The position numbers and the translations under genes were made by a program. Below, piece by piece: positions 11,463 through 30,052 of a stretch of DNA of 50,335 nt (positions within the stretch are counted from its first letter, which is position 1; the number at the start of each line of letters is the position of its first letter). The stretch comes from a virus. The notes under the pieces are model-generated. The model did not search any database and was not told the DNA's origin. It worked only from the letters and a program-made list of their open reading frames with translations. The stretch covers positions 1 through 50,335 of IMG/VR virus record IMGVR_UViG_3300028393_000094. One strand, 5' to 3'.

Positions 11463-12377
11463 ATGGCCGCTCCAATGCGCAGTACGGACTTTAGAAGTAT
11501 TGTTGAACCTATCCTCAACGAATGCTTCGATGGAGTCTATGACCAACGTACCGATGAATGGTCACGGGTTTTCCGTGAGCAAGAAGGTATTCCACGCAAC
11601 TACCACGAAGAACCAGTCCTTTATGGATTTGGAGCCGCACCTCAATTGCCTGATGGAACACCAGTGTCCTATCAGCAAGGTGGTGTTCTCTTCTTGCAAC
11701 GCTATGTGTATAACGTGTATGGCTTGGCCTTCGCGTTAACCAAAGTGTTGGTTGAAGATGGCGACCATATCCGTATCGGTCAGGTTTACGCTCGTCACTT
11801 GGCTCAGTCTTTGATTGAGACTAAAGAGACATTGAGCGCTAACGTGTTGAACCGTGCGTTTAACTCTTCGTACCCCGGTGGTGATGGCGTTCAATTGAAC
11901 TCCGCTTCTCACCCAATCGTGAATGGTACTTTCAGCAACTTGTTGACCACAGCCGCTAACCTGAGCCAAACATCGCTTGAGCAGATGTTGATTCAGATTC
12001 GCCAAGCAGTGGACAACAACGGTAAGAAGATTCGTTTGGTTCCACGTCAATTGATCGTGGCTCCCGGCAACGTCTTCCAAGCCGAAGTTTTGTTGAAGTC
12101 TGTTCTCCGCTCTGGTACTGGTAACAACGACATCAATCCTGTTAAGTCTATCGGCCTCTTGGACGAAGGCGCGGCAGTGTTGTCACGTTTGACCAGCGCT
12201 ACAGCATGGTGGGTACAAACTGATGCACCAGAAGGCATGAAGTTGCTAATGCGTCGCAAACTCGAAAAAACTATGGAAGGTGATTTCGAGACCGACTCTA
12301 TGCGCTACAAGGCTACTGAGCGTTATCAAGTGGGCTTTACTGATCCACGCGCCGTTTACGGCACACCCGGCGTGTAA
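11463..12377 (+). CDS. Major capsid protein (HK97-fold type)
   Basis: This 304-residue protein shows the pattern of a HK97-like major capsid protein. The N-terminal arm includes [18 protein letters not shown], followed by an E-loop-like segment and a helical spine ([21 protein letters not shown]). The P-domain core includes [21 protein letters not shown], and the C-terminal part is [20 protein letters not shown]. It lies after co-chaperonin and scaffold and before a strong terminator, consistent with high expression. No N-terminal pro-domain is obvious, in line with a separate scaffold. Confidence 0.93.
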
Positions 12378-15816: not shown

Positions 15817-16890
15817 ATGGCTTACTCAGGAACCGTCGGCACAACCGTTATCAACGTCCAAACGCTGATAGATCACGGCGCACGTCGGTGTGGAAAGTTA
15901 GCCGAAGAATTAACCTCTGAGCAGGTTCTTTCTTCTCGTCAATCACTTTTCTTTTTGTTGTCCCATCTTGCCAACATTGGCATCAATTATTGGGCAATAA
16001 GCAAAAAAGTCTTTGGTCTTAACGCAGATCAGTACATTTACTCTATGCCATTGGGCTGTATTGACGTTTTGAATGTGCTTTACCGCACAATAAACCGTCC
16101 AAATGGTGCATATACCACCTCAGCGGGCGGTGTGGTGGCAAATGTGTATGACGGCGATGTCAATACTTATTGCCAGCAAACGTCAACAAACGGCAATATT
16201 GCGGTCAATTTTGGCTCTAGCAACCCCATTTATATTGGTTCGATTGGATTTTTACCCTATGTAGCAAGTAATGGATCAGCCACTTGGTCAATTGCGTTGG
16301 AATACTCCACTGACAATTCAACATGGACTATGTTGCAAGATTTGGGAACCATTGTGGTTTCTAACAACGAGTGGGTGTGGACGGATATAGACCCCGGCGA
16401 GTCGGTCGCTTACTACCGAATTCGTGCCTACAACAGCACAACCTTGGCTCTGCGTGAGTTGTACTTTGGTAACAACAGCCGCGAGATTCAAATGGCTCGC
16501 TTGAACCGTGACGACTACACCAATCTGCCAAACAAGAACTTTACGGCTAATCAACCCTATCAGTTTTGGTTTGATAGAACAATCCCGCAGGCTACGGTCT
16601 ATTTGTGGCCTACCCCTAGCGATCCGTTCATTCAGATGACTGTGTGGTATCAGCGCCAGATCATGGATGTTGGTGCGCTTACTGACGAATTAGAAGTCCC
16701 ACAACGCTGGTATGAGGCTGTTGTGTTCATGTTGGCTCACCGTATGAGCCTAGAGTTGCCACAAGTGGCGAATGATCGAATTACTTACCTTGAGAAGATG
16801 GCTGATCGTTTCTATTCAGAAGCCGAGGCAGAAGAGCGCGATAAGTCGCCAATCTACCTTGCCCCTAACATTTCGGTGTATACAAGATAA
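15817..16890 (+). CDS. Head-tail adaptor with inserted discoidin-like domain
   Basis: Encodes 357 residues. Segments 15-95 and 222-357 resemble a podovirus connector/tail-adaptor protein (FFLLSHLANIGINYWAISKK; PQRWYEAVVFMLAHRMSLEL; LEKMADRFYSEAEAEERD). Between them, residues about 95-220 look like an F5/8 type C (discoidin-like) jelly roll: YDGDVNTYCQ, IAVNFGSSNPIYIGSIGF, then EYSTDNSTWTMLQDLG and YYRIRAYNSTTLALRELYFG. Such domains usually bind carbohydrates or surfaces, so the adaptor may display a binding module at the neck. Overlaps the next gene by one base (TAATG). Confidence 0.72.
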   Translation: MAYSGTVGTTVINVQTLIDHGARRCGKLAEELTSEQVLSSRQSLFFLLSHLANIGINYWAISKKVFGLNADQYIYSMPLGCIDVLNVLYRTINRPNGAYTTSAGGVVANVYDGDVNTYCQQTSTNGNIAVNFGSSNPIYIGSIGFLPYVASNGSATWSIALEYSTDNSTWTMLQDLGTIVVSNNEWVWTDIDPGESVAYYRIRAYNSTTLALRELYFGNNSREIQMARLNRDDYTNLPNKNFTANQPYQFWFDRTIPQATVYLWPTPSDPFIQMTVWYQRQIMDVGALTDELEVPQRWYEAVVFMLAHRMSLELPQVANDRITYLEKMADRFYSEAEAEERDKSPIYLAPNISVYTR

Positions 16891-17267: not shown

Positions 17268-19895
17268 ATGTCAGCACAAGTCGTCATTACCCAACTCCCA
17301 GCCGCTGGCGCTCTAACAGGCACAGAGGCGGTTCCTATTGTCCAAAATGGAGTGACAGTTCAGACTACGACTGGCGCAATTGCCGTCCAGCCTACTCAGA
17401 CTCAGACGTTTTTAACGGCAACACAGCAAACGTCGTTACCTAATAGCCGTTATGTAACCGCTGGCACTGGTTTGTCTATTACTGATGGTGGAGCAGGCTC
17501 GTTCTTTAGGGTAAATCTTACGGATACCGCCCTAAGCCTTGATAACGCCGCTGGTGGCATTATTGTGAAGGACTCGGCATCTACGGTAGCCTCGCGGTCA
17601 ATTGCTGTCTCTGGCAACGGTTTAAGCGTTTCCAACGCTAATGGCACTGGCGGCAACCCAACACTAGCCTTGAGCGGTCTGCCTGCTACTTTGGCTAACC
17701 TAAGTGGCTCTGGAATGCTTGCCATTATTAGTGGCACTAGTATTAACCCTCGTACCATTACTGGTACGTCAAATCAAATCACGCTGACAAATGGCGATGG
17801 TCAGGCTGGTAACCCAACAATTGCTTTGGCTGACAACACGGTGATGCCCGGCACTGGGGGTATGGTTGTACCTATTGGAACAACTGCCCAACAGCCAGTA
17901 GGTACGGCTGGGCAGATTCGTTATAACAGTGAAACCAATGCGTTTTACGGATACGCCTCTGGCGCATGGAATGCTTTTACTCTGGCTGGCGGTGTTTCAA
18001 CCTTTAGTGCAGGCACAACAGGTTTTACGCCATCCTCGGCGCAATCTGGAGCAATAACTCTTGGTGGAACTTTAAACGCCGCAAACGGCGGAACTGGTGC
18101 AACCTCGTTGACGGGTTATGTGTATGGCAACGGCACTGGTGTAATGACTGCCAGCACCACCATACCAAGCACGGCAATTACTGGGTTAGGCACTATGGCG
18201 ACCCAAAATGCCAATGGTGTTGCAATTACTGGTGGATCAATTGCTGGCGTAACTATCAATAGTTCTGCAATTGGTGGGTCAACGCCTGCGGCTGGTGCTT
18301 TCACTAGCGTAGCGATGACCACAGGAACAATTACCACAGCGCCTTCTAGTGACAATGACATTGTCAATAAGTTGTATGCCGACGCGCTTGTGTCTGGTAT
18401 TAATTTTCACGCCGCTTGTAACTATGCAACTACCGCAGACCTTGGAGCCGTCACATATAACAACGGCGCTTCTGGTGTTGGCGCAACATTAACCAAAACA
18501 GCGCCTCTCTCCGCCTTATCAATTGATGGCTCAACGCCAGCGGTTGGTAACCGTATTTTGGTCAAAAATGAGACCAATGGCGCTTATAACGGCATTTATA
18601 CGGTAACTGTTGTTGGTTCTGGCGCTACGGCTTGGGTGTTAACTCGCGCCACTGATTACGACAGCACTGGCACTGGAACCAATGAAATTGACCAAGGCGA
18701 CTACGTTTTGGTGTTGTCTGGTACTGTAAACGCCAATACATCATGGGTTCAGCAAACTGCATTGCCAATTGTGATTGGTACAACTGCCTTGGTTTGGACG
18801 CAGTTTGGTGCGGCAACTGTCTACACCGCTGGTACAGGGTTAACTCTTGCAGGCAATGTTTTTAGCATAACCAACACAGCGGTGACTGCGGCAACCTATG
18901 GTTCTGCCTCTCAAGTTCCTGTTTTGACGGTAAATGCGCAGGGTCAACTGACTGGCGTAACAAATACCTCAATTGCCATTGCCGCAGGCGCTGTATCAGG
19001 TCTTGCACCTTCTGCAACAACTGACACGACCAATGCATCCAACATCACCTCTGGAACGCTCCCTACGGGTCGTTTGAGCGGTTCTTACACTGGTATTACT
19101 GGTGTCGGTACGCTGGCGGCGGGAACTTGGAACGGTACAGCAATTGGCGTGGCTTACGGTGGCACGGGACTAACTGCAACTCCGACCAACGGTCAATTGC
19201 CTATTGGTAATGGTACTGGCTACTCTTTGGCTACCCTAACAGCAGGAACTAACGTCAGCATCAGCAATACGGCTGGTGGCATCACGATCTCTGCGACACC
19301 TTCCGCTGGCGGTACGGTTTCGTCAGTTGCCATGACTGTGCCTACGTTCTTGTCTGTATCTGGTTCCCCAATCACTACAAGTGGCACTTTGGCTGTAACT
19401 TTGTCTGGTACAGCCCTTCCAGTGGTAAACGGTGGTTCTGGGGCTACAACCCTGACTGGTTACTTGTATGGCAACGGAACTAGCGCATTTACAGCATCCA
19501 CAACAATTCCTAACACAGCAATTACTGGTTTGGGAACGATGTCTACTCAAAATGCCACTTCAGTAGCAATTACTGGTGGCACAATTGAAGGAACATCGGT
19601 TGGTGCAACAACAGCCTCGACAGTGCGCGGTACAACGATTACTGCGACAACTCAATTTACTGGCGCAGGAACTGGCTTAACTGGCACGGCTTCTGGTTTG
19701 TCGATTGGTGGCAACGCGGCAACGGCAACGCTGGCAACTACGGCAACAAACGTGGCAGGTGGCGCGGCAGGTTCTATTGTTTACCAAACTGGTTCTGGTA
19801 CTACATCAACACTCGCACTAGGAACTCAGGGCTTTGTTCTGACGGCTGGTGCAACTGCTCCCACTTGGAGTGAAATTTCAGGAGGAACATTCTAA
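17268..19895 (+). CDS. Long tail fibre / receptor-binding protein
   Basis: This 875-residue protein is rich in Gly, Thr, Ser, Ala and Val and has few charged residues, as in trimeric beta-structured fibres. A motif starting GGTGATSLTGYVYGNGTG, followed by STAITGLGTMATQNA, recurs near the C-terminus with variations (about residues 275-330 and 720-775). A central domain (about 370-530) contains AVGNRILVKNETNGAYNGIY and WVLTRATDYDSTG, often found in phage fibres. The C-terminal part again has GSIVYQTGSGTTSTLALGTQ, the module shared with the short fibres that follow. Likely mediates host recognition. Confidence 0.85.
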   Translation: MSAQVVITQLPAAGALTGTEAVPIVQNGVTVQTTTGAIAVQPTQTQTFLTATQQTSLPNSRYVTAGTGLSITDGGAGSFFRVNLTDTALSLDNAAGGIIVKDSASTVASRSIAVSGNGLSVSNANGTGGNPTLALSGLPATLANLSGSGMLAIISGTSINPRTITGTSNQITLTNGDGQAGNPTIALADNTVMPGTGGMVVPIGTTAQQPVGTAGQIRYNSETNAFYGYASGAWNAFTLAGGVSTFSAGTTGFTPSSAQSGAITLGGTLNAANGGTGATSLTGYVYGNGTGVMTASTTIPSTAITGLGTMATQNANGVAITGGSIAGVTINSSAIGGSTPAAGAFTSVAMTTGTITTAPSSDNDIVNKLYADALVSGINFHAACNYATTADLGAVTYNNGASGVGATLTKTAPLSALSIDGSTPAVGNRILVKNETNGAYNGIYTVTVVGSGATAWVLTRATDYDSTGTGTNEIDQGDYVLVLSGTVNANTSWVQQTALPIVIGTTALVWTQFGAATVYTAGTGLTLAGNVFSITNTAVTAATYGSASQVPVLTVNAQGQLTGVTNTSIAIAAGAVSGLAPSATTDTTNASNITSGTLPTGRLSGSYTGITGVGTLAAGTWNGTAIGVAYGGTGLTATPTNGQLPIGNGTGYSLATLTAGTNVSISNTAGGITISATPSAGGTVSSVAMTVPTFLSVSGSPITTSGTLAVTLSGTALPVVNGGSGATTLTGYLYGNGTSAFTASTTIPNTAITGLGTMSTQNATSVAITGGTIEGTSVGATTASTVRGTTITATTQFTGAGTGLTGTASGLSIGGNAATATLATTATNVAGGAAGSIVYQTGSGTTSTLALGTQGFVLTAGATAPTWSEISGGTF

Positions 19896-20593
19896 TGGCG
19901 GCTACAGGCTTTACCCCAATTTCGCTGTACTACAGCACGACAGCATCGGCTGTCCCATCGTCTGGGAACTTAGCGAATGGCGAGTTAGGACTCAACATCA
20001 ACGACATGAAGTTGTACGCCAAGAACAGTTCTGGCGTGGTAACTTTGTTGGCTTCTGCTTCTGCAACTACGGCGGTCAACACCATTTCGTTTGGAACGAC
20101 TGGTCTTACCCCAAATACGGCAACTTCAGGTGCTGTTACGGTTGCAGGAACTTTGGCAATTACTAATGGTGGTACAGGTCAAATAACTGCAACAGCGGCT
20201 TTTAATGCCTTGGCTCCAAGCCAGACGAGCAATGTTGGTAAATACCTAACCACAGACGGTACGACTACATCTTGGGCAACGGTTGTTTCTGGTGCGACTA
20301 TCAGCAACGACACAAGTACAGCGTCAAACCTGTACCCCATGTTCTCAAACGCCACAAGTGGCACGCCAACGACGGTGTATACCAGTAACGCAAAGTTGTT
20401 GTACAAGCCCTCTACAGGCGAGTTGCAAGCCTCTGAAATGGTGGCATCAAACGGCATTTTCGTTAATAATGCAACAGTGTCAGCAAGTTATACGGTAGCA
20501 AGTGGTTACAACGCAATGTCGGTTGGCCCTGTCACTGTGGCTTCTGGTCAAAGCGTAACCGTCACCAGCGGTCAGCGCTGGGTCGTACTTTAA
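19895..20593 (+). CDS. Tail fibre protein with conserved N-terminal anchor
   Basis: A 232-residue fibre protein overlapping the previous gene by one base. The N-terminus (FTPISLYYSTTASAVPSSGN, then LANGELGLNINDMKLYAKNS) is a recurring fibre/tailspike attachment segment. The middle has FGTTGLTPNTATSGAVTVAG, the shared fibre-shaft type. The C-terminus is beta-rich (VGPVTVASGQSVTVTSGQRW) and probably trimerises. It sits in an array of fibre paralogues, so several adhesins may decorate the tail or be alternatives. Confidence 0.8.
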   Translation: MAATGFTPISLYYSTTASAVPSSGNLANGELGLNINDMKLYAKNSSGVVTLLASASATTAVNTISFGTTGLTPNTATSGAVTVAGTLAITNGGTGQITATAAFNALAPSQTSNVGKYLTTDGTTTSWATVVSGATISNDTSTASNLYPMFSNATSGTPTTVYTSNAKLLYKPSTGELQASEMVASNGIFVNNATVSASYTVASGYNAMSVGPVTVASGQSVTVTSGQRWVVL

Positions 20594-20602
20594 GGAAAAA
20601 AC

Positions 20603-21454
20603 ATGAGTTCAGTAGTTATTTCAGGCGACACATCGGGTTCGGTAACCCTGCAAGCGCCAGCCGTTGCTGGTACTACCGTATTGACCTTGCCTGCGACCAG
20701 TGGCACAGTTATTACGACAACTAGCGGTACTGCATCATCTGCTACTACCGCAACGACTGCAACAAATCTTGCTGGTGGTTCCAACGGTACGATTCCTTAC
20801 CAGTCAGCATCTGGCACAACACAAATGTTGGCTGTTGGTACAAGCGGTCAAGTTTTGCAAACAAACGGTGCTGGTGCGCCAAGTTGGGTGACTCCTAGTG
20901 CGGGTGCTATGACACTTATTAGTACTCAAACTGCTTCAAGTTCTGCATCAATATCGTTTACAGGATTATCTGGTTACGATAAATATATGTTGATTTATGA
21001 AAATGTAGTTCCTAGTAGCACATCTGGCGCATCCTTTTATATGCAATTTGGAACAGGCGGTGGGCCAACTTATGTAACAAGTGGTTACTATATGTATTAT
21101 TTCCAAAGAACATCGAATAGCGCTGGTCTTGCAAATAATCCAGCCAATGCAATCAGTTATCCAAATCAATCTATCTGGTATTTTGGTAGTAGCACAGGAG
21201 TTGCGGCTAATACAACTGTTTGTTCTGGTTCTTGTATGTTTTCTGGAATCACATCAAGTGGCGGTAAAAATTACAGTTGGAATACTTATGCCTATGACAC
21301 TAACAATGCACCATCAGGAAATGTTCCCGCTTATGAAATTGATTACGGTGTAGGTTACAGCGCTAATTCTTCAACAGTTACTGCTTTGAAATTTTATCCC
21401 ACAAATGGAAGTTTTACTTCTGGCACATTTTCTCTGTACGGCATTTCATCTTAA
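20603..21454 (+). CDS. Tail fibre paralogue 1
   Basis: A 283-residue fibre protein. Its first half carries the shared shaft module (NGTIPYQSASGTTQMLAVGT, then GQVLQTNGAGAPSWVTPSAG). The variable distal part includes GYDKYMLIYENVVPSSTSGA and ends FSLYGISS, a C-terminal signature shared with the two following paralogues. Ribosome site AAGGAAAAA lies before the ATG. The modular build, with a conserved shaft and tail end and a divergent middle, suggests diversification by recombination. Confidence 0.8.
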   Translation: MSSVVISGDTSGSVTLQAPAVAGTTVLTLPATSGTVITTTSGTASSATTATTATNLAGGSNGTIPYQSASGTTQMLAVGTSGQVLQTNGAGAPSWVTPSAGAMTLISTQTASSSASISFTGLSGYDKYMLIYENVVPSSTSGASFYMQFGTGGGPTYVTSGYYMYYFQRTSNSAGLANNPANAISYPNQSIWYFGSSTGVAANTTVCSGSCMFSGITSSGGKNYSWNTYAYDTNNAPSGNVPAYEIDYGVGYSANSSTVTALKFYPTNGSFTSGTFSLYGISS

Positions 21455-21465
21455 AAGGAAAAATC

Positions 21466-21756
21466 ATGGCACTTAATGAAAAAATTAAAGCATATCTTGC
21501 ACAATCTAACATTGCGTTTACAGCGGGTGACTACCAAACTGGTCAACCAGAAGGTCAAGAAGACCAAGTGTTGATTTGGAATACAGAAAAGTTAGGTGCT
21601 CAACCAACACAAGAGCAATTGGACTCTACTTACGAAACATATCAAACAAATTTAGCATTGGCAGAACAAGAAAAAATTAATATCAAAGCATCAGCCCACG
21701 CTAAACTTGTTTCTCTTGGGTTGTCTGCTGATGAAATAGCATCTTTGGGAGCATAA
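21466..21756 (+). CDS. Small fibre-associated protein (XkdW-like)
   Basis: A 96-residue protein between two fibre genes. The N-terminus (IKAYLAQSNIAFTAGDYQTG) resembles a small N-terminal fold seen in XkdW-like and fibre-assembly proteins. It is followed by a helical region (QPTQEQLDSTYETYQTNLAL) and a C-terminal LVSLGLSADEIASLGA helix. Such proteins next to fibre genes often act as assembly chaperones. The name is by resemblance, with no active site visible. Confidence 0.6.
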   Translation: MALNEKIKAYLAQSNIAFTAGDYQTGQPEGQEDQVLIWNTEKLGAQPTQEQLDSTYETYQTNLALAEQEKINIKASAHAKLVSLGLSADEIASLGA

Positions 21757-21758
21757 AC

Positions 21759-22508
21759 ATGAGTTCAATAGCGGCAGGAACCACAAGCGGAACGGCTCTA
21801 GTCTCAAGTGCAGACACAAGTGGTACGCTACAACTTCAGATTAACGGAACTACTCCAGCAGTTACTTTAAACACATCAGGTGCTGTAGGTGTTGGTTCTT
21901 CACCATCGTATGGAAGTTCTGGTCAGGTGCTTACTTCGGGTGGTAGCAGTGCTGTCCCTACTTGGACTACGCCAAGCGCTGGTGCTATGGCGCTTATAAG
22001 TACTCAAACTATAAGTTCTGCTGTATCTTCAATTCAATTTACTGCTTTGACTGGATATGATAAATATTTTATATTGTTTGAAAATTTAACTTATTCTGCA
22101 ACTTATGATTCTATAGGCGTTCAATTAGGAACTGGCGCTGGGCCTACTTATTTAACAAGTAATTATAATGTTAGCGTAATTGATACAGGCACATCTGGGA
22201 CTTCACCCATTTATGCTTCTGGCACAGGATTAAACTCTCTTACTTATCCAGCAGGTACAGCCATGTTTTCTGGGTCAGTTGGTATAAGCGGATTAATGTA
22301 TTTAAATGGATTTACTTCTACAACAGGTATAACAACAGCAAATTACCAATTAAATTTTCAAAAATACGATAGTTCTTATTGCCAAACAATTGGTATGGGT
22401 CAATTGCTAAGTAATACAACAATTAAAACAGCAATAAAAATATTTGGTGTTTCAAATTCTAGTAATTTAACTAGTGGAAAAATATCACTTTACGGTATTT
22501 CATCTTAA
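21759..22508 (+). CDS. Tail fibre paralogue 2
   Basis: A 249-residue fibre protein. It starts with a short beta shaft (SGTLQLQINGTTPAVTLNTS), then GSSGQVLTSGGSSAVPTWTT and PSAGAMALISTQT, the same shaft-to-head transition as its neighbours. The distal part contains GYDKYFILFENL, close to the equivalent point of paralogue 1, then diverges, and ends KISLYGISS. Base composition of its distal half is more AT-rich than the shaft, consistent with module exchange. Confidence 0.8.
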   Translation: MSSIAAGTTSGTALVSSADTSGTLQLQINGTTPAVTLNTSGAVGVGSSPSYGSSGQVLTSGGSSAVPTWTTPSAGAMALISTQTISSAVSSIQFTALTGYDKYFILFENLTYSATYDSIGVQLGTGAGPTYLTSNYNVSVIDTGTSGTSPIYASGTGLNSLTYPAGTAMFSGSVGISGLMYLNGFTSTTGITTANYQLNFQKYDSSYCQTIGMGQLLSNTTIKTAIKIFGVSNSSNLTSGKISLYGISS

Positions 22509-22518
22509 AGGGTAAAAC

Positions 22519-23364
22519 ATGGCAGTAATAATTGATGGCACAACAGGAATAACGACCCCCGGCGAAACAAACACGGGTAACTTGAGTGTTGCTGGAACTA
22601 CAACGCTGACTACGCCACTGCCTGTTGCTTCTGGCGGTACAGGTGCAACTTCGTTGTCTGGCATTACTGTAGGTACTGCAACCACGGCAACGACTGCAAC
22701 CACGGCAACGACTGCAACCACGGCTACAAACTTAGCCAGTGGTTCTAACGGAACCATACCTTACCAGACTGCTTCTGGAACAACAGCAATGTTAGCGGTG
22801 GGTACAAGTGGTCAAGTTCTGCAAACTAACGGCGCTGGCGCTCCAAGTTGGATAACTCCAAGTGCTGGTGCATTGACGTTAATTAGTACGCAAACCCTTT
22901 CAGGTTCCGTTGACCCAACATTTACATCTGGTATTTCATCTACATATAAAACATATCTACTTGTTACGCAACTTTATGGAAGCCAGAATTGGTATCCATT
23001 AATTAGGTTTTATGCGGCTGGTGGAGTAGATACTAACAATGCGTATTCATATTCTTTTAAAACTGGTAATACTTATTCTGGCGCCGCTGGGCAAGGCGCA
23101 ATTTTTGTTTATAACGGACAAACGGGAAGTTCCCAAAGTACTGCGTACGGTTTTGAAACAATAATTTACGCCCAATATAGCCAATCGTATCCTTATTCGG
23201 TAGGAACTTCTTCAATTGGTAACATACAAGGAGGCAGTGTAATGCTTTCAAGTTCTGGCGGTTATGACAGTTCTGGTGGTAGAGGCGGAGCAATCACGGG
23301 TGTTCAAATTTATTCAAACGGAGTAGGCGTGTACGGTACGATTTCTTTATATGGAATTTCATAA
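22519..23364 (+). CDS. Tail fibre paralogue 3
   Basis: A 281-residue fibre protein. The N-terminus (IIDGTTGITTPGETNTGNL) is a common phage fibre start. The middle has a TAT-rich run coded by an 18-bp tandem repeat, then NGTIPYQTASGTTAMLAVGT and GQVLQTNGAGAPSW shared with paralogue 1. The distal part is unique to this copy and ends GTISLYGIS. Together with the two upstream paralogues it forms a three-member fibre array, with the XkdW-like gene between the first and second. Confidence 0.8.
   Translation: MAVIIDGTTGITTPGETNTGNLSVAGTTTLTTPLPVASGGTGATSLSGITVGTATTATTATTATTATTATNLASGSNGTIPYQTASGTTAMLAVGTSGQVLQTNGAGAPSWITPSAGALTLISTQTLSGSVDPTFTSGISSTYKTYLLVTQLYGSQNWYPLIRFYAAGGVDTNNAYSYSFKTGNTYSGAAGQGAIFVYNGQTGSSQSTAYGFETIIYAQYSQSYPYSVGTSSIGNIQGGSVMLSSSGGYDSSGGRGGAITGVQIYSNGVGVYGTISLYGIS
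22678..22726 (+). repeat. 18-bp tandem repeat in fibre gene
   Basis: The unit GCAACCACGGCAACGACT occurs twice perfectly (22678-22695, 22696-22713), followed by a partial copy. It is in frame and encodes an alternating Ala/Thr tract, so slippage would lengthen or shorten the fibre by six residues without a frameshift. Confidence 0.9.
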
Positions 23365-23543
23365 TGACAACATTAACTAAAATGGTTGACGGAGTTGTTC
23401 TCCCTTACACGGACGAAGACTATGCCCAACTTGAAAAAGATAGAGCAAATTTGGCTCAACTTCAACAACAATCAATTCCAACAAAAGAAGAATTGCTTGC
23501 TCAATTGCAAGCCCTTCAAGCACAAATTCAGGCACTAGCATGA
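23364..23543 (+). CDS. Small fibre-chaperone-like protein
   Basis: A 59-residue frame that starts inside TAATG at the end of fibre paralogue 3 and overlaps the next start by four bases. The product begins TTLTKMVDGVVLPYTDEDYA and ends in a Gln/Leu-rich helix (LLAQLQALQAQIQALA). Short proteins of this type often follow fibre genes and may assist assembly. The overlapping start and stop support translation. Confidence 0.65.
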   Translation: MTTLTKMVDGVVLPYTDEDYAQLEKDRANLAQLQQQSIPTKEELLAQLQALQAQIQALA

Positions 23544-23689
23544 ACCTACAACTCCCAATTGAAACAGTAAACCAAGTCCTTGGTTACCTTGGCACACGCC
23601 CTTACCAAGAGGTGTTTAGCCTAATTCAAGCCATTCAGGATGCGGCAAAGCCTCCTGTTGCGCCAACTGAAGATCAGGGTAATGTCTGA
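23540..23689 (+). CDS. Very small protein between fibre and lysis genes
   Basis: Encodes 49 residues (MNLQLPIETVNQVLGYLGTR at the start, Ala/Pro-rich tail). It overlaps its upstream neighbour by ATGA and its downstream neighbour by 8 bases. The compact helix LGTRPYQEVFSLIQAIQDAA resembles small phage proteins that bind a partner through one amphipathic helix. The function is unknown. Evidence for translation is the end-to-end packing. Confidence 0.6.
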   Translation: MNLQLPIETVNQVLGYLGTRPYQEVFSLIQAIQDAAKPPVAPTEDQGNV

Positions 23690-23897
23690 CACTCACGAAC
23701 TAGCCACGGAGACTGACAAGCGCCTCGCGGTTCACGAAGCGATTTGTGCGTCCCGTTACGAGGGCATACAAAAGCGTTTTGACGACGGCTCCAAGAGAAT
23801 GCAACGTATTGAGTACATCTTGTATTTAATTGTTGTAATAACTCTTTTAGGAACTGATTCGGTCTCTACGCTTTTGATGAAACTTATCATTCGATAG
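23682..23897 (+). CDS. Single-pass membrane protein, lysis cassette
   Basis: The start at ATG 23682 overlaps the preceding gene by 8 bases. The 71-residue product has a soluble charged N-terminal half (LAVHEAICASRYEGIQKRFD) and a hydrophobic helix at about 44-58 (YILYLIVVITLLG). A short tail ends with basic residues. It opens a run of five genes each with at least one membrane-spanning segment, ending in an endolysin. Possible holin-like or spanin-related role; no family recognised. Confidence 0.65.
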   Translation: MSDTHELATETDKRLAVHEAICASRYEGIQKRFDDGSKRMQRIEYILYLIVVITLLGTDSVSTLLMKLIIR

Positions 23898-23906
23898 GGG
23901 TGCGAC

Positions 23907-24614
23907 ATTGACCCCTTCAGCATCTTACTCGCCGCGCAAACCGCTTTTGGAGTCATCAAACAGGGGGTCGCCCTCCTTCACGATGGTCGCATGGCGGTCG
24001 AGTCTGCTAAAAAAACTGTTGATCAAGCGATTGACGATGTTAAAACTATCAAAGGTGTCTGGGACTGGTTTATTGGGTTTTTCAAGTCATCCGACAAGAC
24101 AACCGCGCCCAAGCCTGTGGCGCAAAAGAAAATTGCCAAAGCCCAACAATCTTACGAAGAGTTTGAAACCAAACTTATCAACGATATTGGTACAAGCCTC
24201 GGAGTTCTGTTTGACGCGCAACAACAGATTAACAACCATTACCTTGAACTAGAAGAAGAATCAAAAACCAAGTACAACCCAGAGCAAAACACCTCAAAGA
24301 AAGCAACGGAGAGGGTGCTTATTGAGTTGCAGATGGAAAAGATGATGGAGCAGGTAAGGGAGGCAATGGTGTATGCGCCTTCTGAATTAAAGGATTTGTA
24401 TAGTCGATTCCTCAAGATGCACGCCAAGATAGAACGTGAACAGGAGTGGGCTAAGTCAGAAATGATTCGTAGGGCTAGGCTGGCTAGATGGCGCAAGGAG
24501 CAAGATGAGATTAGATTCATTGAGTTAACAAGTGGTGTAGTTGCCGTGGTATTTATATCTTCATTCTTTGGGTGGATCATGTGGGAACTACGAAACTTGT
24601 CTGTTGGATATTGA
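23907..24614 (+). CDS. Membrane-anchored coiled-coil protein with probable ATT start
   Basis: In this frame a stop (TAG, 23895-23897) is followed by only three codons before ATT at 23907. The stretch after ATT reads IDPFSILLAAQTAFGVIKQG then VALLHDGRMAVESAKK, and this N-terminus matches the usual opening of related phage proteins. AGGGGTG lies at ribosome-site distance before the ATT. The first ATG is at 23991 and would remove 28 residues. The 235-residue product has a hydrophobic start, a long charged helical middle and a C-terminal membrane helix (VVAVVFISSFFGWIMW). Probably part of the lysis module; the exact role is unknown. Confidence 0.65.
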   Translation: MDPFSILLAAQTAFGVIKQGVALLHDGRMAVESAKKTVDQAIDDVKTIKGVWDWFIGFFKSSDKTTAPKPVAQKKIAKAQQSYEEFETKLINDIGTSLGVLFDAQQQINNHYLELEEESKTKYNPEQNTSKKATERVLIELQMEKMMEQVREAMVYAPSELKDLYSRFLKMHAKIEREQEWAKSEMIRRARLARWRKEQDEIRFIELTSGVVAVVFISSFFGWIMWELRNLSVGY

Positions 24615-24748
24615 TAGGAGTAGCAATATGTCTTATTGTTGGAGTTACATCAATGGCGTATGTGGAAACTCTATATATGAAAGCCCAACTCAGGCAAGAG
24701 ATCAAAGAGTTGCGTAAATTAAAACGGGAACTAAAGGAGTCTAAATGA
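24581..24748 (+). CDS. Tiny membrane protein with basic helix (spanin-like?)
   Basis: A GTG start inside the end of the previous gene gives 55 residues: a transmembrane helix (CWILIGVAICLIVGVTSMAY) followed by a highly charged Lys/Glu/Arg helix (LRQEIKELRKLKRELKESK). The stop overlaps the next ATG (ATGA). An N-terminal anchor plus a charged coiled coil is the general shape of inner-membrane spanins, but the length is short. Assignment as spanin-like is tentative. Confidence 0.55.
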   Translation: MGTTKLVCWILIGVAICLIVGVTSMAYVETLYMKAQLRQEIKELRKLKRELKESK

Positions 24749-25017
24749 ATTGGGCAGATGTATTAAAAGCAGTCATTCCTATCATTGTGGCATCCCTTGC
24801 TTGGCTCTTGGGTCAGGTCAACGATTTCTCCACGCGCTTGACGCGAATTGAAGGCGCTATGCCTGCATTGATTACCAAAGAGGGCATCCCAACGGACAGC
24901 CCAATTTCTGCGGATAGAAGAACCATTATGAAAGAGCAGTTGATGAACCACATCAACGAGTTGCAAGTCAAAGTCAGGTTGCTTGAAGAACGTGAAAAAA
25001 TGGGAGTTAAAAAATGA
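24745..25017 (+). CDS. Small N-terminally anchored membrane protein
   Basis: A 90-residue protein: N-terminal hydrophobic helix (VLKAVIPIIVASLAWLLGQV), then a polar region and a heptad-rich C-terminal helix (MNHINELQVKVRLLEEREK). The topology resembles i-spanins or accessory holins. It overlaps both neighbours by four bases, a sign of strict translational coupling in this cassette. It most likely acts with the holin and endolysin in envelope disruption. Confidence 0.65.
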   Translation: MNWADVLKAVIPIIVASLAWLLGQVNDFSTRLTRIEGAMPALITKEGIPTDSPISADRRTIMKEQLMNHINELQVKVRLLEEREKMGVKK

Positions 25018-25412
25018 TACCTATTGGCGCACTTTTAGACATTGGCGGGAAGATACTAGATAAGGTCTTTCCTGACCCAGCACAGGCGGAGCAGGCCAAA
25101 CTCAAACTGCTTGAGATGCAACAAAACGGAGAGTTGGCAAAACTCAACGCAGATGTATCTGAACAGCATGAACTCACAGAGAGACTTAAAGCGGACATGG
25201 GTTCTGACTCTTGGCTATCCAAAAACATCCGTCCTATGACCTTGGTGTTTATCTTAATCACTTATACAACGTTTGCCATGATGTCTGCATGGGACATTGA
25301 AGTTAACAACAATTACGTTGAATTACTGGGACAATGGGGTATGTTGATTATGTCGTTTTACTTTGGTGGTAGAACGTTGGAAAAGATCATGGATATGAAA
25401 GCCAAGAAGTGA
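25014..25412 (+). CDS. Holin of the 3TM type
   Basis: A 132-residue protein of the pattern known for the GTA/3TM holin family. It has an N-terminal amphipathic hydrophobic segment (IGALLDIGGKILDKVFPDP), a charged helical middle, and then NIRPMTLVFILITYTTFAMM. A second transmembrane helix (LGQWGMLIMSFYFGGRTLEK) is followed by a basic tail. Holins form lesions in the inner membrane that release or activate the endolysin. The very next gene is an endolysin, overlapping by four bases, which supports the assignment. Confidence 0.82.
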   Translation: MIPIGALLDIGGKILDKVFPDPAQAEQAKLKLLEMQQNGELAKLNADVSEQHELTERLKADMGSDSWLSKNIRPMTLVFILITYTTFAMMSAWDIEVNNNYVELLGQWGMLIMSFYFGGRTLEKIMDMKAKK

Positions 25413-25867
25413 ACCTCAGCGAACACTTTACCCTTGAAGAGGCAACGTACAGCGAGACTGCTATACGGATGGGTATTAATAACCAACCCGATGAGCGCCA
25501 ACTGGCAAACATGAAGGTGGCGGCGGGGCATTTGGAGGAGGTGCGAAATGTCACAGGCGCTCTTCGTGTTAATTCTTGGCTACGCTTGCCCGATGTTAAT
25601 CTTGCTGTTGGCGGTTCTAAAGTATCCAGCCACATGGATGGTTGGGCTATTGATTGCTCTTCTTCTGCTCACACTCCTTACGACTTATGTCAAATTGTTT
25701 TAAAAGCAGGCATTAAGTTTGACCAGATGATCCATGAATACGGGCGGTGGATGCACATATCCTTTGCGCCTGAGATGCGTCAGCAAGAACTAACCATCTA
25801 TAAGCCAGAAGGAAAATACAAGGCTGGAGTTTTAACCGAAGCCCAATACCATGCCAAAGTTGCCTAA
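25409..25867 (+). CDS. Endolysin, peptidase M15-like
   Basis: A 152-residue enzyme with the M15 (D-Ala-D-Ala carboxypeptidase-like/L-Ala-D-Glu type) zinc site: H75 and D82 in SSHMDGWAIDC, and H116 in RWMHISFA, with E110 as a possible catalytic acid. It would cleave peptidoglycan cross-link peptides. No signal peptide is present, so export depends on the upstream holin. The start codon is GTG, overlapping the holin stop (GTGA). Length is normal for single-domain endolysins of Gram-negative phages. Confidence 0.9.
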   Translation: MNLSEHFTLEEATYSETAIRMGINNQPDERQLANMKVAAGHLEEVRNVTGALRVNSWLRLPDVNLAVGGSKVSSHMDGWAIDCSSSAHTPYDLCQIVLKAGIKFDQMIHEYGRWMHISFAPEMRQQELTIYKPEGKYKAGVLTEAQYHAKVA

Positions 25868-25917
25868 ACAAGGTCTAGGCAATACAATAACCTATACCAA
25901 ATTCTTGGAGAAATAGC

Positions 25918-26553
25918 GTGACGACTGCTTCGGTAATGACATATGACTCCTTGGTCGAAAACATTCAGTCATATCTGGAGCGTACTGACACCGCTACGCT
26001 TGAGAAAATCCCTCTGTTCATCATGCTGGCAGAGCAAATTATTGCCAGCCAAATTAAGTTTTTAGGTAACTTAACCGTTGTGGAATCCACAATGGTTTCC
26101 AACCAAGCGGTTATTGATAAGCCAGCACGTTGGCATAAGACAGTTTCGTTCAATATTTCAGTGGCTGGTGAGCGCCAGCCTGTTTTGTTGCGCAAGTATG
26201 AGTACCTTCGTGAGTATTGGCCTGACGCGACCAAGACTGGTATTCCCGCGTACTTTGCGGATTACGACTACACCCATTGGTTGGTTGCACCAACTCCTAC
26301 TACAACCTACTCATTTGAAGTGCTGTATTACGAGCGCATCCAACCTTTGGATTCTTCTAACCAGACGAATTGGTTCACAATTTACGCGCCACAAGCGTTG
26401 CTGTATGGGTCTTTGTTGCAGGCTATGCCGTTTCTCAAAAATGATGAGCGCATGGGTATGTGGCAACAGAACTATGACCTCATCATGCAAACCTTGATGG
26501 CGGAAGATAAATTGAGATTGGCTGATCGTCAAGCCGTAGCAGTGGACACATAA
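25918..26553 (+). CDS. Head-tail adaptor protein (SU10 adaptor-like)
   Basis: A GTG start behind GGAGAA gives 211 residues. The sequence MTYDSLVENIQSYLERTDTA, then IPLFIMLAEQIIASQIKFLG, and a later beta-rich segment (FEVLYYERIQPLDSSNQTNW) matches the pattern of adaptors that sit under the portal in podoviruses. The C-terminal helices (PQALLYGSLLQAMPFLKNDE) are typical. It is the first gene after the lysis cassette and precedes tail genes. A second adaptor-like protein is encoded at 15817, so the neck may contain two related rings. Confidence 0.8.
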   Translation: MTTASVMTYDSLVENIQSYLERTDTATLEKIPLFIMLAEQIIASQIKFLGNLTVVESTMVSNQAVIDKPARWHKTVSFNISVAGERQPVLLRKYEYLREYWPDATKTGIPAYFADYDYTHWLVAPTPTTTYSFEVLYYERIQPLDSSNQTNWFTIYAPQALLYGSLLQAMPFLKNDERMGMWQQNYDLIMQTLMAEDKLRLADRQAVAVDT

Positions 26554-27782
26554 TGAGTTACAACAGCCCTTTTACTGGTAACGTCATCCAGCCAACTGAC
26601 GTATCGTATAGCCGCATCACGCTGACAGATGATTTGCAGTTGACGTGGCCTATCAACGGTTCGATAACCAATGATGCCGCCGCTAGAGTCATGGAGGTGT
26701 CAACCACTACCACGGCAAACGAATTGTGGATGCCTCCTGCTAATCAAGCCTCGGTAGGTCAGGATGCCTTGATTCGTAACGTCGGCTCTGTTTCGGTAAC
26801 GGTCAAAGACTTTACTGGCGCAAACACCATTGTTACGGTTGCCGCTGGTCAGGCGCAGTACATCTACATTACAACCAACGCTACCACGGCTGGAACATGG
26901 GGCATTATTGCTTTTGGAATTGGTTCTTCTGGCGCAGACGCGGCTACATTGGCTGGATATGGACTTTTGGCTATTGGTCAGACGTTGAACCAAAGCCAGC
27001 CTGTAACGACTTTCTCCTCTAGTTACACCGCACTGACAACAGATCGTTCCAGCACCTATGTGTGGACTGGTGGCGCAGGAACTTTGACTCTATCGCTTGC
27101 GTCTACGCTTGGGAATAATTGGTTTATGTTTGTGCGCAACAGCGGCACTGGCGTTTTGACTGTTACAGGCACAAGCGGAGACTTAATTAACGGCTCCACA
27201 TCAATTGTTCTTCAGCCCCTTGATTCTTGTATTGTTGTATGTAGCGGAACGCAGTTCTACACCGTTGGATTGGGTAAGTCTACGCAATTTGCATTCACTC
27301 AACTATCCAAGGCTGTTACGACTGGCAGTTACACGCTGACAGCGGCTGAGGCTTCCAACGTCATTCAAAAATATACTGGCGCGTTGTCAGGCAACGTGAC
27401 CATCATTGTTCCTTCAACGGTTCAGGTTTATTACATTGTCAATGCAACAACTGGCGCATATACCGTAACCATTTCAACTGGTTCTGGGTCAAACGCTATT
27501 TTGACCGCTGGATCACAAGCCACGCTTGTTTGCGATTCTGTCAACTTGTTCAATGCCAACACTATTTTGGCTGGCTCATCTACAGTGAGTTTGAACAATG
27601 GTTCTGTTGGTGCGCCATCTTTGAACTTTTCTTCAGAAACAACTACTGGCATTTACCGCGCCGCTTCGGGTGAGTTCAATGTTGCAATATTGGGAGCACT
27701 GCGATTGACGGTGTCTGCCTCTGGAATTGCCGTTGTAGGTACTGGAACATTTTCTGGTGGGATTGCTGGCGGGACTTATTGA
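26553..27782 (+). CDS. Beta-rich tail structural protein
   Basis: This 409-residue protein is Thr/Ser/Gly/Val-rich with many short beta strands. The N-terminal part has PFTGNVIQPTDVSYSRITLT and LQLTWPINGSITNDAAARVM. Repeated units such as GNVTIIVPSTVQVYYIVNAT and YTVTISTGSGSNAILTAGS look like stacked beta modules. The C-terminus (SETTTGIYRAASGEFNVAIL) resembles fibre shaft repeats ending at a head or trimeriser. Position between adaptor and tail hub suggests a tail needle, fibre or side protein. It overlaps both neighbours by a single base. Confidence 0.7.
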   Translation: MSYNSPFTGNVIQPTDVSYSRITLTDDLQLTWPINGSITNDAAARVMEVSTTTTANELWMPPANQASVGQDALIRNVGSVSVTVKDFTGANTIVTVAAGQAQYIYITTNATTAGTWGIIAFGIGSSGADAATLAGYGLLAIGQTLNQSQPVTTFSSSYTALTTDRSSTYVWTGGAGTLTLSLASTLGNNWFMFVRNSGTGVLTVTGTSGDLINGSTSIVLQPLDSCIVVCSGTQFYTVGLGKSTQFAFTQLSKAVTTGSYTLTAAEASNVIQKYTGALSGNVTIIVPSTVQVYYIVNATTGAYTVTISTGSGSNAILTAGSQATLVCDSVNLFNANTILAGSSTVSLNNGSVGAPSLNFSSETTTGIYRAASGEFNVAILGALRLTVSASGIAVVGTGTFSGGIAGGTY

Positions 27783-30052
27783 TGACTAAAAAAGTTTTAA
27801 CAATTGATACCCTACCCGGCATCCAGCGGGACGGTACTTTTTTCGATAAAAACTTTTACAGCGATGGTCGATGGGTAAGATTTCAACGCGGTCGTCCGCG
27901 CAAAGTGGGGGGATATCGGTCAATAACTCAACTAGCAACTGGCGTATCTCGGGGAATTTTTGTTAACTCCGCTGATGGCGTAAATCAAGTTTTTAACGGA
28001 TACAGTTCTGGACTTGAGGTTCTTAACGTAAACAACCTTGGTATTGGCGGCGGTGTAAACCAGTTTGTCTTTAACGGTTTCATTTTGACGCTTAACACGC
28101 TTGTGGGCGGTACGCTATATACCAATGGAACTTATACAGGTGTAAGTCTAACTGGCGGTACTGGCACGGGTGCAAAGGCGACCATTGTGGTTGCTGGCGC
28201 TACGGTCACCACTGTGACCCTTACAGCGGCTGGTGATGGCTACGCTGTAGGCGATACCCTAAGCGCAACGGCGGCAACTATTGGTGGAACTGGCAGTGGG
28301 TTTTCCATTAAAGTGGCGACAATTAATAATGGGTTTACGGCAAATGATTTGAACCTTTGGCAATTTGATTCTTCTTTTGACTCTCAAGGTTCTGGGAATC
28401 AGTTGTTGTTGGCGCACCCCGGTCAAAACTTGGCGCAGATTGACCAAACCGTATCAACTCCAGTTTTGGCTGGAAATATAAATGGTTTGGCTATGCAACC
28501 TTTGCGCGACATTAATGGCACAACCCCTACGAATGCAACCATTTCTGTTGCTGGTGGAGTGGTTGTTTTGCACCCATACGTTTTTGTATATGGCGACAAC
28601 GGTCTAATTAAGAACTGTGCCGCTGGTGATCCATACAATTGGAATAGCGCAGACTCTAACGAAGCCAATGTTGCCTCTACAAAGATTGTCAAGGGGTTAC
28701 CCGTAAGGGGTGGTTCTAACGCTCCATCTGGTTTATTTTGGGCTTTAGACTCGTTAATTCGTGTCTCTTACACCCCAACAACAATTACTGTGGGCGCAAC
28801 ATCTAGCACTTTTTATTGGCGTTATGACATTATTTCTAGCCAGTCGTCGATCCTGTCATCGCAGTGCGTGATTGAATATGACGGCATCTACTATTGGATT
28901 GGTGTTGATCGATTTTTGCTATACAACGGCGTAGTTAAGGAAATTGCTAACACCATGAACCAAAACTACTTTTTTGACAATCTGAACTATGCGCAGAGTC
29001 AAAAGGTATGGGCAACAAAAGTTCCGCGTTTTGGTGAAATTTGGTGGTTCTATCCTTCTGGTGATTCAGTAGAGTGCAACAACTGCATCATCTATAACAT
29101 TCGAGAAAACTGTTGGTATGACGCTGGTTTCTCTGATGGCGCTAAACGCACGGCTGGATATTTTTCACAAGTTTTTCATTACCCCATCAATGCTGGGGCA
29201 GACTTGAGTATTCAGGCAACGCTGTTTACGGCAAATATTGCCACAACAAATTCAAGCGCTACCGTGACCATGTCAATCAATAATCAAATTACAAACGGTC
29301 AATTGGTGGTGGCAACTGGGGTTCCTACGGGTGCATACATTTCTGCAATCGTTGCAAATTCAGCCGCAACAACTGCAACAGGTACTTCTGGTGCAAGCAC
29401 TATTACGGTAGCAAGCGCAACGGGAATTTTAAGAAGTCAATTGGTGACTGGTACAGGAATCGGTACTGGCGCAACCGTTGTAAGTGTTGTGGGTACAACT
29501 ATTACTTTGTCAGTTGTAAATTCTGGAGCGGTTTCAGGCGCGGTTGCGTTCTCTGGAAACACTTTGACGCTTTCTTCTGCGGCGACTGCCACAGCAATTG
29601 TGTCTGCAAACTTCCAAAGTGTGCCAAATAAAGTTATTCTTTGGCAACATGAAATTGGCACAGATGCTGTAATTGATCAGGTTTCTGATGCTATTGAGAG
29701 TTATTTTGAAACATCCGACTTGGGTTGGGTCAGTGGCGGCCCCTCCCAGTCCCCGCAGATTCCCCAAGGTGGCGTAGGCGAAAACCGTTGGTTGCATCTT
29801 GAGCGTGTCGAGCCTGACTTTGTGCAGTCTGGCGTTATGTCACTGCAAGTTGTTGGTCGACCATTTGCCCAAAAAGACGATGTAATTTCTGACCCATACT
29901 ATTTTGACCCAGACACTGGCAAGGTAGATATGCGTGAGCAACGCAGAGAATTGAGATTGCGATTTAACAGCAATATACAAGGCGGAACTTACCAAATGGG
30001 TAAGGTTTTGCTCAGTGCAGACTTTGGCGACGTTCGCCCATACGGAAGTTAA
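27782..30052 (+). CDS. Tail hub protein (P22 gp10-like)
   Basis: The start is ATG 27782, overlapping the previous stop by one base; a TTG directly before it is in frame but unlikely. The 756-residue protein has the opening LTIDTLPGIQRDGTFFDKNF and YSDGRWVRFQRGRPRKVGGY typical of the packaged-DNA-stabilisation/tail-hub family. Later it has beta-propeller strands (YDGIYYWIGVDRFLLYNGVV; FGEIWWFYPSGDSVECNNCI). A Thr/Val/Ala-rich insert (about residues 490-620) interrupts the propeller. The C-terminus has GKVDMREQRRELRLRFNSNI. It would plug the DNA-filled head and join the tail to the neck. Confidence 0.85.
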   Translation: MTKKVLTIDTLPGIQRDGTFFDKNFYSDGRWVRFQRGRPRKVGGYRSITQLATGVSRGIFVNSADGVNQVFNGYSSGLEVLNVNNLGIGGGVNQFVFNGFILTLNTLVGGTLYTNGTYTGVSLTGGTGTGAKATIVVAGATVTTVTLTAAGDGYAVGDTLSATAATIGGTGSGFSIKVATINNGFTANDLNLWQFDSSFDSQGSGNQLLLAHPGQNLAQIDQTVSTPVLAGNINGLAMQPLRDINGTTPTNATISVAGGVVVLHPYVFVYGDNGLIKNCAAGDPYNWNSADSNEANVASTKIVKGLPVRGGSNAPSGLFWALDSLIRVSYTPTTITVGATSSTFYWRYDIISSQSSILSSQCVIEYDGIYYWIGVDRFLLYNGVVKEIANTMNQNYFFDNLNYAQSQKVWATKVPRFGEIWWFYPSGDSVECNNCIIYNIRENCWYDAGFSDGAKRTAGYFSQVFHYPINAGADLSIQATLFTANIATTNSSATVTMSINNQITNGQLVVATGVPTGAYISAIVANSAATTATGTSGASTITVASATGILRSQLVTGTGIGTGATVVSVVGTTITLSVVNSGAVSGAVAFSGNTLTLSSAATATAIVSANFQSVPNKVILWQHEIGTDAVIDQVSDAIESYFETSDLGWVSGGPSQSPQIPQGGVGENRWLHLERVEPDFVQSGVMSLQVVGRPFAQKDDVISDPYYFDPDTGKVDMREQRRELRLRFNSNIQGGTYQMGKVLLSADFGDVRPYGS

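Follow-up and report, generated by a model that had tools for sequence, protein, structure and literature searches.

The stretch of DNA analysed here, referred to as the window, comprises positions 1 to 50,335 of the IMG/VR record IMGVR_UViG_3300028393_000094, which represents an uncultivated virus. It carries an array of three fibre genes that lie head to tail on the plus strand, each with its own start: fibre 1 in slot 1 (20603..21454; 283 amino acids, aa), fibre 2 in slot 2 (21759..22508; 249 aa) and fibre 3 in slot 3 (22519..23364; 281 aa). All three are complete open reading frames (ORFs) built on one plan: some 35-50 residues of N-terminal anchor are followed by a joint, and the C-terminal tip takes up about 170-190 residues. 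A preliminary description of the array had listed them as three paralogues in which a common shaft and a common end SLYGIS flank a differing middle. The common end was confirmed, all three proteins terminating in SLYGIS or SLYGISS. The tips are related, but the N-termini are three different anchors (classes T1, T2 and T3) with none in common, so that the genes are not plain duplicates.

The shaft is shared by two of the three genes. Genes 1 and 3 have a block of 215 nt in common at 78% identity (20729-20943 and 22693-22907), which encodes NGTIPYQ.ASGTT.MLAVGTSGQVLQTNGAGAPSW.TPSAGA, and both fibres contain the full connector GTIPYQ(S/T)ASGTT(Q/A)MLAVGTSGQVLQTNGAGAPSW, located on the plus strand at 20786..20887 in fibre 1 (GTIPYQSASGTTQMLAVGTSGQVLQTNGAGAPSW) and at 22750..22851 in fibre 3. 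Gene 2, however, is devoid of the shaft block; it possesses a short joint, GQVLTSGGSSAVPTW (21921..21965, plus strand), and its common stretch extends only from GQVL through TPSAGAM.LISTQT. The tips are encoded at 20888..21451, 21966..22505 and 22852..23361 of the same strand. Their sequences do differ, as had been claimed for the middle of the genes, yet the domains are still related, with identities (common linker and end included) of 63/171 for genes 1 and 2, 43/158 for genes 1 and 3 and 43/158 for genes 2 and 3. After trimming of linker and end, tips 1 and 2 matched each other (phmmer E 1.6e-11) and tip 3 matched itself only; in hhalign comparisons the trimmed tip 3 matched a profile of other family members (probability 95.7, 91 columns) but not the profile built from the clade that includes tips 1 and 2 (probability 0.87). 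An iterated profile search of the 4308 ORFs of the fetched loci (see below) united about 50 proteins in one family, including the three window tips and the tips of slots 1 and 3 of locus L010.

Two small ORFs on the plus strand that are absent from the preliminary description follow fibres 1 and 3. The first (21466..21756; 96 aa) is XkdW-like, its score against XkdW (PF09636) of 25.6 bits lying barely above the curated cut-off of 24.6. The second (23364..23543; 59 aa) gave no match in family searches, and its last 20 residues, TKEELLAQLQALQAQIQALA (23481-23543 with stop), constitute what we call below the slot-linked tail. Their position behind a fibre and their covariation with the tip are the grounds on which we presume both to be fibre chaperones. 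No chaperone ORF lies behind fibre 2, whose tip is, among the three, the nearest to tip 1; the 96-aa chaperone may therefore serve both fibres 1 and 2.

For comparison, contigs were gathered by similarity to window proteins, with the best 80 kept per scan; the sample is accordingly biased, and the loci (L numbers) overlap, 381 of them, window included, falling into 285 distinct groups by a shared-word rule. Anchor classes, linker and connector were defined by regular expressions of our own. The closest informative relative, L010, has an adaptor 98% identical to that of the window and flanking genes that agree at 94-98%. Its three anchors stand in the same order, their beginnings matching those of the window at 17-18/20 residues in each slot. 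At the joint, identity collapses in all three genes, to 2-7/20 per block in slot 1 and 2-7/20 in slot 3, and slot 2 is present only as a stub of 89 residues. Full conservation of the array in relatives, which the preliminary description had named as the outcome that would speak against exchange, is thus not what is observed: the tips of L010 are replaced. The only other record of the window virus, L005, is 100% identical over 16,849 nt and uninformative on variation.

The same pattern recurred more widely. At slot 1, seven loci with unlike tips (21 pairs) share on average 84% DNA identity in the anchor (about residues 1-36; 20603..20710, plus strand) and 72% in the joint; protein identity is 24% in the tip and 30% in the chaperone front. 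DNA identity amounts to 89% in the chaperone tail, taken as the last 20 residues (15 pairs), and to 79% in the next gene. The slot-3 anchor region (22519..22673, plus strand) is 92% identical at the DNA level to L010 (156 nt) and 83% identical to L008 (162 nt). Across 68 fibres, 180/201 pairs of anchors from different groups that are at least 80% identical carry dissimilar tails. The order T1-T2-T3 is also found in L007 and L321, with related orders elsewhere, such as T2-T3b-T2b; among 21 arrays, T1 precedes T2 in 7/8 and T2 precedes T3 or T3b in 10/10. By our reading of these 21 arrays, with classes assigned by regular expression, no anchor class occurs twice within any one of them. The recurrence of anchors, joint and tip family in other contigs places the array pattern beyond chance.

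Conversely, similar tips were observed on different anchors. In the tip tree, L006 (T1) and L007 (T3) were joined, as were L010 (T3) and L030 (T2b), with a support of 100/100 each. The codon-level profile of L006 and L007 passes from unlike to alike at the joint; that of L010 and L030 does so slightly before and after it, and their shafts differ. Another kind of tail is common to L028 (T1b) and L328 (T3) at 94%. Among the 68 fibres, 26/50 pairs with similar tails cross anchor classes, although several of these repeat one contig group (for example L058/L059); the tails on different anchor classes are 56-94% identical. The case that we regard, from sequence comparison, as the strongest single one of tip transfer for the window virus is L008. 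Its fibre begins with an anchor like that of fibre 3 (83%), continues with a shaft and tip start like those of fibre 1 (82%) and then enters a diverged tip core. A subsequent stretch of 334 nt, which covers the 3' end of fibre gene 1 and all of its chaperone, is 95.5% identical at the DNA level, so that a slot-1 chaperone here accompanies a slot-3 anchor. Further 3', L008 follows the window again (23539-24738 at 93.75%; 25010-29575 at 89.7%), and the ORF ahead of its mosaic fibre resembles, by eye, the ORF ahead of slot 3 in L010.

These results bear on the simplest alternative, a lineage-specific duplication that gave rise to the three genes, followed by rapid divergence of the tips through point mutation, driven by selection from the host and without any exchange. 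It would account for the mutual relatedness of tips 1 and 2 (37% identity) and for the shaft common to genes 1 and 3, but each of the three different anchors has a counterpart in other phages, among which one and the same tip is found on unlike anchors. In addition, chaperone type changes with the tip, and the window tips formed one clade in 0% of 200 bootstrap trees, tip 3 being a long branch. On the basis of the tip tree, the tail pairs that cross anchors and the joint profiles, we rejected plain duplication with fast divergence, which we consider quite unlikely.

Searches with the connector DNA pattern returned 74 stretches in the viral collection and 1 in the genome collection; a text search of the literature for the connector peptide found no paper. 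The 74 stretches yielded 49 complete non-redundant proteins; for 47 of these, a head cluster (12 in all) and a tail cluster (27 in all) could be assigned, which gave 33 head-tail combinations. At third codon positions, connector identity is 0.454 between anchor classes and 0.633 within them, with 0.378 expected from codon usage. The mean protein identity between classes of 0.85 is partly built in, the sample having been picked by protein pattern. Since the between-class value is little above the codon-usage expectation, the connector appears to be conserved mainly as protein and would today serve poorly as a DNA homology arm for exchange between slots. This weighs on the possibility that homologous exchange between slots of the same genome, by way of the common shaft DNA, is the main motor. 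Fibres 1 and 3 of the window agree at 17/30 connector third bases, even though the genes share the 215-nt block and the shaft of fibre 3 is closer to that of fibre 1, both of the window and of L010, than to that of fibre 3 of L010. We consider such an intragenomic motor improbable.

We next turn to the chaperone-like ORFs and the 3' limit of the exchanged unit. Among 48 non-redundant units, similarity of chaperone fronts, taken as the first 32 residues, correlates with that of tips (r 0.68; 0/2000 permutations as high) and hardly with that of anchors (0.10; 67/2000). In the 20 units whose chaperone has a TKE(E/Q)L tail, the partial correlation of the front is 0.64 with the tip (0/2000) and -0.06 with the anchor; tail DNA shows the opposite behaviour, with a partial correlation of 0.43 with the anchor (0/2000) and 0.09 with the tip (353/2000). 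Dropping a near-duplicate (19 units from 15 loci) gave 0.65 for front and tip, -0.01 for front and anchor, 0.39 for tail and anchor (1/5000) and 0.01 for tail and tip. Individual pairs behave likewise: L006 and slot 3 of L007 are alike in tip and chaperone front (77% DNA) and not in the tail (57%), and L006 and slot 1 of L010 are alike in the chaperone tail (85%) and not in the front (53%). The evidence that the 3' limit lies inside the chaperone gene, instead of at SLYGIS, is thus good but not final. Among the titles listed in literature searches, none dealt with fibre chaperones whose two ends are inherited separately, many subscription journals lying outside the searched literature.

The fold of the tips was approached by prediction. 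AlphaFold2 models of fibres 1 and 3 had protein mean pLDDT values of 77.8 and 72.5, with N-terminal parts of low confidence, and in both the tip was predicted to be a beta-sandwich. Predicted viral proteins that resemble the models at E 0.001 or below numbered 104 for fibre 1 and 93 for fibre 3 and are mostly uncharacterised. Fold comparison of tips 1 and 3 with the PDB gave Z scores of 6.5-9.4 for C-terminal domains of GH32 proteins, for galectins and for the Haloferax tailed virus 1 fibre. For fibre 1 the matches include 8bet_B (Z 9.4, 3.7 A over 127), 2d6p galectin-9 (Z 6.9, 3.5 A over 115) and the Haloferax tailed virus 1 tail fibre 9h5b (Z 6.7, 3.8 A over 124); for fibre 3 the corresponding Z scores are 8.2, 7.0 and 7.1. 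The arrangement of the tips is thus similar to that of 9h5b and of galectin and GH32 beta-sandwiches, but sequence identity to them is about 4-12%, and Z scores below 8 may mean a common arrangement only. Foldseek, run with fibre 1 only, found no PDB match at E 0.001 or below, and a sequence search of the PDB with the fibre alignment gave just two antibody chains (E 0.0066 and 0.02), judged to be chance.

Sequence families provided little further naming. At E 0.1, Pfam gave no match for any of the three fibres. A match to phrog_14820, a PHROGs family of unknown function, was obtained with the tip of fibre 1 (E 1.6e-10) and with 25/38 aligned relatives (E 0.001); fibres 2 and 3 gave no match to it at E 0.1, and both join the tip family through the iterated profile. 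Pfam and NCBIfam searches with the 38 relatives offered no name covering the family; a handful of weak matches, each confined to 1 or 2 members, include the BP39L-family lectin in 2/38 (E 0.00076). We therefore treat the three tips as members of one predicted lectin-like beta-sandwich family whose function has no annotation, and the resemblance of the predicted fold to galectin, GH32 and viral fibre domains makes a glycan-binding tip plausible.

Taken together, these data make it likely, in our judgement, that the locus provides three fixed anchor slots with exchangeable lectin-like tips, moved by recombination as a cassette that reaches from the fibre joint to the middle of the chaperone gene. 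The locus would be a host-recognition array with three fibre positions. Each retains an N-terminal anchor of its own, which would allow a virion to be fitted with three different fibres. Behind each anchor would lie an exchangeable tip, which, to go by the predicted fold, probably binds a surface glycan. Over evolutionary time, as the comparison of loci shows, recombination has replaced tips and moved them between positions and between phages. The cassette would start at the joint GQVLQTNGAGAPSWVTPS inside the fibre gene, take in the tip together with the first part of the small presumed chaperone gene behind it, and end ahead of the last 20 residues of the chaperone, which would stay with the slot; this 3' end is suggested by the correlation in the 20 units, from which the crossovers are deduced. 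The portability of tips together with chaperone fronts argues for repeated exchange. Recombination swapping of host-recognition parts had already been suggested in the preliminary description, and comparison between phages supports it well, through replaced tips at kept anchors, like tips on unlike anchors and the slot-1 chaperone in slot 3 of L008.

Several observations weigh against this reading. The 33 head-tail combinations among 47 proteins compare with 41.7 (37-46) expected under independence and are fewer than in all 5000 shuffles; full shuffling of heads and tails is therefore false, and on this count heads and tails are partly inherited together. L045 has a T2 anchor before T1. L248, L249, L250 and L251, with adaptors 92-96% identical, carry quite different fibre genes and no three-fibre array, which indicates that this variable locus can have other contents than the array. 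Assembled contigs such as L008 may be chimeric, yet the window contains no match to the core of the L008 tip. As regards the 3' limit, in the full set of 48 units the chaperone tail correlates both with the tip (0.31; 0/2000) and with the anchor (0.27; 1/2000); where chaperone fronts are similar, the tips are clearly similar by score in just 19/105 unit pairs; the slot-1 chaperone of the window itself has no TKE tail and falls outside the 20-unit test; and the permutations remove relatedness only in part.

A more far-reaching version of the cassette model, which we put forward tentatively and do not expect to hold in full, is a plug-in grammar. A cassette bounded by GQVLQTNGAGAPSW in the fibre and by PTKE[EQ]LL in the chaperone would fit unlike anchors, and the chaperone would be chimeric, with a front that recognises the tip and a slot-specific tail that perhaps serves as an address to a place on the virion.

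The alternative that the three genes are adhesins used singly and switched by inversion or by a diversity-generating retroelement has some precedent, as arrays of alternative fibre parts occur in invertible systems. The genes of the window, however, are complete, lie on one strand and each have their own start and anchor; inverted repeats among them are 20-31 nt long at 70-81% and do not represent a switch site. In agreement with the preliminary description, which had noted neither a reverse transcriptase nor an invertase, searches of the record for RVT_1, Resolvase and Phage_integrase, these three families only and in a record that is possibly incomplete, gave no match. A diversity-generating retroelement was rejected for want of an RVT_1 match, template repeats having been sought only in the general repeat comparison, and a Gin/Cin-type invertible switch for want of a Resolvase match and because the genes all lie on the same strand. 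We regard switching as extremely improbable. Because the anchors are unlike and non-redundant in all three genes, the fibres are better seen as parts of one virion than as alternatives, and the virion would then carry several adhesins, the second possibility raised in the preliminary description.

Exchange of adhesin tips is already known, although one rarely sees where the exchanged unit begins and ends. Adhesin exchange at the T-even distal tail fibre locus (gp37/gp38) was reportedly described by Tetart et al. in 1998; there a single fibre position is concerned, whereas the window has three slots and a 3' exchange limit that appears to lie inside a chaperone-like gene. The branched tailspike complex of the Ackermannviridae offers a further likeness. 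As set out in the passages of PMC11414711 on tailspike clusters (kuttervirus S117, CBA120), there are several receptor-binding proteins per cluster with distinct conserved N-termini and exchangeable variable C-termini, and the conserved 5' ends may serve recombination. Distinct conserved anchors, one per receptor-binding protein, are likewise seen in the window group (21 arrays, L010 profiles). That complex has gp10-like XD domains and beta-helix tailspikes. The window, in contrast, has small chaperone ORFs behind fibres and predicted beta-sandwiches in tips 1 and 3; its short anchors, whose models are of low confidence, gave no Pfam match and may or may not contain XD domains. In the Alteromonas phages A5 and V22, a fibre and its cognate chaperone are common to distant phages, and the relevant part of PMC10579305 treats the chaperones as whole units; in the window group, front and tail seem to differ in ancestry, and each genome offers several slots. 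By analogy, the window array may work like the Ackermannviridae complex and T-even adhesin exchange, as a variant of known adhesin exchange. The uncultivated phages compared here seem to display both limits within coding sequence, several times over, and the pattern predicts the pairing of chaperone fronts with tips and of chaperone tails with slots. If this is true, tips, chaperones and positions would be readable from metagenomes alone, and the rule makes a testable claim on how labour is divided inside small fibre chaperones.

The array is bordered on the left by a fibre-like protein of 232 aa and anchor class T0 (19895..20593, plus strand), which is 94-95% identical in L010 over its whole length, and on the right by a small ORF with LGTRPYQEV (23540..23689, plus strand; by-eye reading), from whose vicinity, at 23539, the match to L008 at 93.75% sets in. 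Between the adaptor and the lysis region, fibre-like genes of 875 aa and 232 aa precede the three array fibres. The window encodes terminase, portal, capsid (match at 11463-12374) and an adaptor-like protein and is, by this gene content, that of a tailed phage. A short-tailed form is a guess only, because the SU10-adaptor match of the adaptor (21.6 bits) is below the family cut-off. By terminase, MW202545 (Manatee Spring; 53.9%) comes closest among named records, followed by four Caulobacter phages (about 45%); tblastn of fibre 1 against named phage records gave no match. The corresponding position in MW202545 is occupied by genes whose annotations, tail fibre and endo-N-acetylneuraminidase, are in keeping with a host-recognition locus.

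In slot 2, separate proteins often come after a short T2 stub of 89-194 aa (L010 8972-11009, L007 8908-10868, L321 from 6335 on, L042 from 4951 on), so that the slot-2 tip can be a separate gene; behind the stub, L010 and L007 have a glycine-rich protein of 423 and 415 aa, respectively. Between slots 2 and 3, the same two loci (L010 11440-11775, L007 11295-11633) contain a small ORF of cupin-like look (HTHQFDHLT...HDVMHE, by-eye reading of the translation), which the window lacks at that position. In GB2A, a related Caulobacter phage, a homing endonuclease is annotated amid structural genes (locus L444, 3252-4802). The adaptor-like protein of the window (15817-16890) has a match to the F5/8-type C (discoidin-like) domain PF00754 at residues 101-203 (E 4.3e-5; 24.1 bits, below the cut-off of 28.2), which points to a possible extra sugar-binding domain.

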